Shown one piece after another: positions 11,177 to 30,491 of a stretch of DNA of 64,000 nucleotides. The translations under genes and the position numbers were made by a program. A model generated the notes under the pieces. It had not been told where the DNA came from and ran no database searches. It saw only the letters and a list, made by a program, of their open reading frames with translations. Each line of letters opens with the position of its first letter. Positions within the stretch are counted from its first letter, which is position 1. Source of the DNA: Hymenoscyphus infarciens (Eukaryota > Ascomycota > Leotiomycetes > Helotiales > Helotiaceae); the NCBI GenBank assembly GCA_001414345.1, contig LLCB01000017.1:186001-250000 (forward strand), in the 5' to 3' direction.

Positions 11177-11326
11177 GCGTTTGTGGTTTAATGGTAAAAT
11201 CGATGCTTGCCAATCCAATTAGAGAACTAATTGGTCTATATGCATTGGCTCCGGGTAAGCTCTTCTACTACATTCTTCAACACCACCCCCTCTAACATGC
11301 AATAGGTTCGATTCCCGGCGAACGCA
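11177..11326 (+). tRNA. tRNA-Gly (GCC) with two intervening sequences
   Basis: The acceptor strands GCGTTTG and CGAACGC pair (one T-G wobble) with discriminator A at 11326. The D arm holds GTTTAATGGTAAAATC, a good A box. The anticodon stem GATGC/GCATT encloses loop TTGCCA plus T, anticodon GCC. A 28-nt intron (11213-11240) follows position 37; it contains the perfect 8-bp stem CCAATTAG/CTAATTGG with an AGAA loop and matches the usual place for eukaryotic tRNA introns. A second insert of 51 nt (11255-11305) splits the T stem. Without both, the RNA is 71 nt, with T arm CCGGG-TTCGATT-CCCGG. The B box GGTTCGATTCC is complete in the genome because the insert ends in G. A run of six T follows at 11340. 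Whether a mature tRNA is made depends on removal of the 51-nt insert. Confidence 0.85.
11255..11305 (+). other. 51-nt GT-AG intron-like insert in the T arm of tRNA-Gly
   Basis: Begins GTAAGC, ends CTCTAACATGCAATAG, and contains a pyrimidine-rich middle and a CTAAC branch-site match about 9 nt before the terminal AG. Exact excision joins CCGG to GTTCGATT and rebuilds the T arm. The length and signals match spliceosomal introns of nearby protein genes, for example the 51-nt second intron of SMC3 (GTATGT, CTAAC, CAG). tRNA introns cut by the tRNA endonuclease normally sit at 37/38, so this insert is in the wrong place for that enzyme. Confidence 0.8.
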
Positions 11327-11339
11327 ATAATACACACTC

Positions 11340-11345
11340 TTTTTT
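11340..11345 (+). terminator. RNA polymerase III terminator of tRNA-Gly
   Basis: Six consecutive T begin 14 nt after the discriminator base, the standard Pol III stop signal. Confidence 0.7.
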
Positions 11346-11407
11346 GCATTTCTTTTCTCTCTCTTCTGCTGTTTCATCACCCGGGTTCAGTCATGAGCGC
11401 CAATAGC

Positions 11408-11431
11408 CCCGGTTTCTTCCCGGCGAACGCA
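11408..11431 (+). repeat. Degenerate second copy of the tRNA-Gly 3' end
   Basis: The sequence TTCCCGGCGAACGCA, preceded by CCCGGTTTC, repeats the T arm and acceptor strand of the tRNA about 105 bp upstream. It is also preceded by CCAATAG, recalling GCAATAG at the end of the T-arm insert. It looks like a partial duplication of the tRNA 3' half; no 5' half was found. Confidence 0.5.

Positions 11432-26744: not shown

Positions 26745-30491
<3,747 letters not shown>

Follow-up and report, generated by a model that had tools for sequence, protein, structure and literature searches.

The tRNA-Gly(GCC) gene of Hymenoscyphus infarciens described here very probably harbors a U2-type spliceosomal intron inside a gene transcribed by RNA polymerase III (Pol III) and, judging from comparative sequence analysis, belongs to a genome-wide set of such genes. 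It lies in a window of 64,000 nucleotides (nt), the whole stretch of DNA that was analyzed (contig LLCB01000017.1, positions 186,001 to 250,000), and is organized as follows.

11177..11326, plus strand: tRNA-Gly(GCC) gene, 150 nt including the discriminator A, 71 nt without both introns
11184..11194, plus strand: A box TGGTTTAATGG, read off the sequence by its consensus
11213..11240, plus strand: canonical tRNA intron of 28 nt at 37/38, length from ARAGORN, edges set by eye from anticodon-stem pairing
11255..11305, plus strand: GT-AG insert of 51 nt, spliceosomal-type, between tRNA positions 52/53, from the sequence and its paralogues
11292..11296, plus strand: branch-point motif CTAAC, 9 nt upstream of the 3′ end of the insert
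11305..11315, plus strand: B box GGTTCGATTCC, rebuilt over the 3′ splice site, AG/GTTCGATTCC
11340..11345, plus strand: T run, likely Pol III terminator, from the sequence
11407..11431, plus strand: second, decayed tRNA-Gly T arm with its 3′ acceptor strand, lying uninterrupted downstream of the gene

The first-pass annotation of this DNA had claimed that the locus yields a standard 71-nt tRNA-Gly once two pieces are removed, namely, a 28-nt intron after position 37 and a 51-nt GTAAGC...CTAAC...TAG insert that splits the T stem. This anatomy was borne out. When the insert alone was taken out, ARAGORN called a tRNA-Gly(gcc) with a 28-nt intron, which was placed at 11213-11240, and the insert itself was located at 11255-11305, where it starts with GTAAGC, ends with TAG and cuts the T stem between CCGG and G. 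The further claims that the Pol III boxes and the terminator look intact and that the insert preserves the B box held as well: the A box, the B box and the T run were all located by sequence, and GGTTCGATTCC spans the 3′ splice site at 11305-11315, its first G being the final base of the insert. The whole window returned zero tRNAs with ARAGORN (bacterial setting, no introns) or with Rfam at gathering scores. In a genome search with the covariance model RF00005, the gene scored 27.9 bits, under the 29-bit cut-off, compared with 48.8-48.9 bits for three insert-free Gly(GCC) copies.

We searched the window's own genome, which comprises 65.6 Mb in 742 contigs. Six copies of Gly(GCC) were found in it: two more copies, in addition to that of the window, carry an insert at the same site, and three (C448, C27 and C66) are without it. 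The three inserts have in common the GTAAGY start and the end made of CCCCTCTAACA and TAG, around a diverged middle, and the mature part is nearly intact. This comparison of paralogues supports the earlier suggestion that an mRNA-type intron sits in a tRNA gene and is either spliced or fatal to it. Our finding exceeds that suggestion, as seven tRNA types are affected, one of them not firmly identified, and the inserts sit at three positions. Among the matches listed, 17 tRNA genes carry an mRNA-type insert, a count that is a lower bound; 14 of them come in addition to the three Gly(GCC) genes, and the types are Gly(GCC) (3 genes), Arg(ACG) (3), Gly(TCC)-like (1), Asp(GTC) (5), Ser(GCT) (2), Ser(AGA) (2) and Thr(CGT) (1).

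Insert at 52/53: Gly(GCC) C80 (the window gene), C303 and C16
Insert at 52/53: Arg(ACG) C87, C122 and C720; Gly(TCC)-like C730
Insert at 60/61, T loop: Asp(GTC) C41, C336, C422, C481 and C570
Insert at 60/61, T loop: Ser(GCT) C723 and C287; Ser(AGA) C158 and C721
Insert at 12/13, D arm: Thr(CGT) C267

Given the two Gly paralogues and the 14 genes of other types, the insert in the window is more than a chance event. The canonical position 37/38 is the insert site in none of the 17 genes. The identity of C730 is uncertain, since it was initially read as Trp(CCA) and called Gly(TCC) by ARAGORN. Thirteen genes were found via RF00005, B-box or DNA searches, and the other four (C87, C122, C730 and C158) by patterns demanding splice signals. 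Such patterns returned 11, 22 and 25 matches against 6, 27 and 24 in the respective reversed controls; they are not clearly above these controls, and the case therefore rests on the tRNA context around the inserts. In this respect, ARAGORN found one of the 17 genes in the raw sequence and all 17 after removal of the insert, and the single raw call (C303) was given a false 71-nt intron. A canonical intron is present in addition to the insert in all three Gly(GCC) genes, two of the three Arg genes, all five Asp genes, C730 and the Thr gene, and is absent from the four insert-bearing Ser genes and C720. While the Ser(AGA) genes C158 and C721 have an insert and no canonical intron, the insert-free Ser(AGA) copy C63 has a canonical intron of 17 nt.

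The genes read for Pro, Asn, Lys, initiator Met, Thr(AGT), Val, Gln and His had a canonical intron or none. When 71 stretches that bear tRNAs were scanned for intervals resembling an insert, the 18 candidates included the three Gly genes and C720; beyond the known genes, removal of the interval yielded new tRNA calls only at C224, C226 and C125. Two of these, C226 and C125, were rejected as new insert-bearing genes and taken for Leu(CAA) genes whose intron is an ordinary one. The third (C224:5724-5884) is a tRNA with a long variable arm, perhaps Leu(CAG), that contains GTAAGT...CTAAT...AAG between positions 34/35 plus a canonical intron; it was kept outside the 17, as ARAGORN called it Thr in raw form and SeC after removal. 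A tRNA-like sequence with a 104-nt intron and, according to ARAGORN, a TCA anticodon was seen at C145:40351-40526.

The inserts resemble introns of messenger RNAs. All 17 begin with GT and end with AG; the edges were chosen such that the tRNA is restored, and four of the genes came from signal-demanding patterns. A YTRAY motif, CTAAY in 16 inserts and TTAAC in one, stands 9-10 nt before the 3′ end in all 17, within the expected range of 6-36 nt. The 5′ splice sites read GTAAGT (10 inserts), GTATGT (2), GTAAGC (2), GTAATT (2) and GTAAAT (1); 12 of the 17 fit the fungal consensus GTRWGT, as given in PMC5832005, and the other five deviate from it at one place. Sixteen inserts are 49-56 nt long and one is 70 nt, and their inner parts contain 8.9% G over 755 nt, compared with 18.2% in the window. 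In the Gly and Asp inserts, the conserved part coincides with the splice signals. When precursors were folded to judge how accessible the splice sites are, the insert was less paired than the exons in 17/17 cases, a figure obtained on the native sequences only and given no weight here. The product of the SMC3 gene in the window is 87% identical, over the first 400 residues of its main exon, to that of Hymenoscyphus albidus, the best named match; the top match overall stands at 98%, and the named matches that follow come from other Helotiales, which agrees with a helotialean fungus close to Hymenoscyphus. Two introns of this gene served for comparison.

26783..26842, plus strand: SMC3 intron 1, 60 nt, GTAGGC...CTAAC...TAG, boundaries judged by eye with the H. 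albidus protein as guide
30103..30153, plus strand: SMC3 intron 2, 51 nt, GTATGT...CTAAC...CAG, boundaries judged by eye with the H. albidus protein as guide

The length of 51 nt and the CTAAC motif of intron 2, both pointed out in the first-pass annotation, were thereby confirmed. A scan of the window for GTRNGT..CTAAC..YAG gave seven matches, weakly above the 3.25 in shuffled sequences.

Other kinds of intron match these features poorly. Group I and group II introns have a catalytic core of hundreds of nucleotides; the inserts measure just 49-70 nt, and no Rfam match was obtained in the window. A mobile family of introner-like elements would share repeated gain of spliceosomal introns with the inserts but would leave many genes with introns that are almost identical; the searches with seven of the 17 inserts as queries returned self-matches only (E of ≤0.1, very common words skipped). 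It is also extremely improbable that the inserts are noncanonical introns for which a bulge-helix-bulge directs the tRNA endonuclease, in the style of archaea and Cyanidioschyzon merolae. Positions in the T and D arms, which the inserts share with those introns, are indeed known in archaea according to PMC3400036, and introns outside the anticodon arm in archaea and C. merolae are described there and in PMC3978253 as needing a bulge-helix-bulge. However, the central 4-bp helix of this motif, which should lie between two 3-nt bulges at the splice sites, is complete in 0/17 inserts, the best case being 3/4 (C730), and the conserved GTAAGT and CTAAC would be left unexplained. Canonical eukaryotic tRNA introns (37/38, tRNA endonuclease) co-occur with the insert in most of the 17 genes, and the inserts differ from them in position and signals and are without the endonuclease motif.

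Insert-free copies are known for five of the seven types: apart from Gly(GCC), these are Arg(ACG) at C113 and C336:173129, Asp at C202, Ser(AGA) at C63 and the more diverged Ser(GCT) at C255. For C730 and Thr(CGT), a second copy was not found in our search, which a sequence-diverged gene of the same type would escape. The insert-bearing genes hence need not be essential, and an argument from essentiality, in which every copy of a type would carry an insert, fails on the insert-free Asp C202 and Ser(AGA) C63. The existence of insert-free copies is compatible with the inserts being chance or transposon-like insertions that killed tRNA copies. Two of the 17 genes do look damaged, which points in the same direction: Arg C720 shows one G too many where insert and exon meet and lacks the canonical intron, and Asp C422 shows G-to-A changes, including one in the anticodon (atc). 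These two observations indicate that some insert-bearing copies are probably dead. An Asp 5′ half, a damaged copy, was also seen at C113:43200-43480.

As an account of the whole set, death by insertion is nevertheless very unlikely in view of how exons and inserts have diverged. We compared 16 same-type pairs, leaving out C720 owing to its damage and C730 and Thr, which have no partner. The insert differed more than the exons in all 16 pairs, with Fisher p values from 1.6e-9 to 0.016, although pairs inside a family are not independent. The Ser(AGA) pair differs at 0/81 exon and 19/52 insert positions (p = 1.6e-9), the Arg pair at 0/71 and 18/55 (p = 5.2e-8), and the Asp genes C336 and C481 at 1/72 and 22/58 (p = 2.0e-8), while the weakest pairs (p = 0.014 and 0.016) include the damaged C422. 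The exons of Gly C303 and C16 are identical at 69/69 positions and their inserts differ at 13/53 aligned columns; the window copy departs from both at 2/69 exon positions, a difference that speaks for a dead copy. A dead gene loses exons and insert alike, and such decay of the exons at the rate of the insert failed as a description of 16/16 pairs (C720 standing outside the comparison); exons that stay near-intact while the insert diverges are thus not what is expected of a dead gene. Conserved splice signals, the use of the same sites across tRNA types and a run of at least four T residues behind each of the 17 genes (by eye) likewise argue against dead copies. Concerted evolution may contribute to the likeness of exons among paralogues. 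The two Ser(GCT) genes have 10 exon differences, eight of which make up four double-sided stem changes (by eye), at 6-67, 7-66, 11-24 and 12-23; for those in the D stem, CpG-to-TpA mutation could be another source.

The position of the inserts bears on the internal promoter. In the genes with an insert at 52/53, the intron AG is followed by exon GTTCGANNCC, so that a 3′ splice site at 52/53 rebuilds the B box, which matches at 11/11 positions in six genes (C720 aside). The Thr gene has an 11/11 B box and an A box split by the insert. At 60/61, the insert splits the B box in nine Asp and Ser genes. An unsplit B box was found downstream of seven of these nine genes and of none of the eight with an unsplit box (Fisher p = 0.002, for family members that are non-independent and searched lengths that are unequal). 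All five insert-bearing Asp genes have GGTTCAATTCC, an 11/11 B box, directly 3′ of the tRNA; they were first found through this downstream box, and a T-loop pattern that ignored the box returned the same five and no further Asp gene. Among the Asp copies, the downstream stretch is 71-95% alike and the upstream flank 50-62%, near the shuffled level. That the downstream stretch duplicates the 3′ end of the Asp tRNA was considered and rejected, for the likeness is apparent at the T arm but fails the rule of ≤10 mismatches; only the B box is claimed there.

Downstream of the Ser(AGA) genes, at 384 nt in C158 and 321 nt in C721, lies an intact Ser T arm with the tRNA 3′ end and no interruption. Its B box matches at 9/11 positions, the same as in a normal Ser gene, and chance 9/11 matches also occur nearby. 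A common 64-nt block of 78% identity lies ahead of the downstream fragment in C158 and C721. For both Ser(GCT) genes, a T-arm copy was not found within about 510-570 nt beyond the gene; the one 10/11 B-box match of C287, TGTTCAATTCC, was counted as chance and lies at 462 nt, measured from the start of the gene. Decayed 3′ fragments follow the window gene and Arg C87 (217 nt downstream). By a 16-mer rule, downstream 3′ fragments occur in 3/17 insert-bearing genes, to which C158 was added from a longer stretch, but neither in any of 16 insert-free genes nor in C202 and C63; the comparison of 4/17 with 0/18 gives a Fisher p of 0.045. These fragments may be relics of intron arrival.

A structured Pol III RNA with the same type of intron exists in this genome. 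One U6 copy (C81, 400-680) contains 51 nt of GTACGT...CTAAC...ACAG exactly where another (C85, 16050-16450) is uninterrupted, and its sequence suggests that a Pol III transcript is probably already spliced in this organism. Besides C81 and C85, two diverged U6 copies were seen, and C719:86120-86340 is among the U6 stretches. Introns of the mRNA type in fungal U6 have reportedly been described by Tani and Ohshima in 1989 and by Canzler et al. in 2016. Those of fission yeast and other fungi are like the present inserts in being short, with GT-AG ends and a branch motif, and in interrupting a structured Pol III RNA. In contrast to U6, the host here is a tRNA whose internal promoter boxes are split or rebuilt by the intron, and most of the insert-bearing genes yield an RNA that a second splicing system would handle as well. 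The introns of fungal U3 snoRNA, as characterized in PMC5832005, are also alike, with paralogues with and without the intron within a genome, GT-AG ends and an RCTRAC branch motif, but U3 is no tRNA. That 2017 paper presents U3 and U6 as so far the sole small structured RNAs in which an intron is known to be a frequent occurrence. Spliceosomal introns in tRNA genes were unreported among the open-access matches listed.

Spliceosomal splicing is normally coupled to RNA polymerase II (Pol II). This coupling would favor loci that are spliced but give rise to longer Pol II transcripts, with a different role for the tRNA part. We hold such a scenario to be improbable in the extreme: the T runs are kept, the B box is intact or present downstream in 15/17 genes or fewer, ARAGORN obtains a full cloverleaf from the exons in 17/17 (with C720 and C422 looking doubtful by eye) and U6, a Pol III gene, carries the same intron type in the genome.

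Pol III transcripts are unusual substrates of the spliceosome. Collectively, the conserved splice signals, the kept exons, the insert-free copies, the U6 intron, the likeness to the SMC3 introns and the downstream B boxes lead to the reading of the insert as a spliceosomal intron. In the mechanism that we propose, the A and B boxes would direct transcription of the gene by Pol III. As the unspliced transcript would be without a T arm, the spliceosome would act first, with U1 bound at GTAAGY and branching at CTAAC, so that the exons would be joined as CCGG to GTTCG. The spliced tRNA would then fold and its ends would be trimmed. Cutting of canonical tRNA introns by the tRNA endonuclease is established, and this enzyme would subsequently cut the anticodon-loop intron. 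In the 60/61 genes, the unsplit downstream B box (7/9 genes) would function as an external promoter element.

A wider reading, which we put forward tentatively as slightly less likely than not, goes further; its odds were reduced because the Asp downstream stretch does not qualify as a 3′-end copy. The spliceosome would routinely take part in the maturation of about seven tRNA types in this lineage. Many of these tRNAs would be processed by two splicing machineries that are unrelated and act in a set order. Introns would have arrived time and again at the borders of the B box, where the promoter was either rebuilt or else replaced by a downstream B box that took over. Finally, the downstream copies may record the origin of the introns, each insertion having supplied a new 3′ end in place of the old one, which was displaced; in the Ser(AGA) genes, the downstream B box plainly sits in a second copy of the gene's own 3′ end.

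In the textbook division of labor, eukaryotic tRNA introns are the task of the tRNA endonuclease alone, and several tRNA types with spliceosomal introns would break it. PMC3400036 contrasts the removal of pre-tRNA introns by endonuclease and ligase with spliceosomal transesterification. Spliceosomal introns are known in another Pol III RNA, U6, but for tRNA biology they would represent a new intron class. There is also a practical side, as tRNA finders miss real genes: ARAGORN missed 16/17, and the three Gly genes fall under the Rfam cut-off. The genes would offer natural substrates for studying how the spliceosome handles an uncapped Pol III RNA, in what order splicing occurs relative to the folding of the tRNA and the trimming of its ends, and how genes whose promoters are internal acquire introns. 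For this fungus, the sequences suggest that the machinery that splices messages also finishes some of the transfer RNAs.
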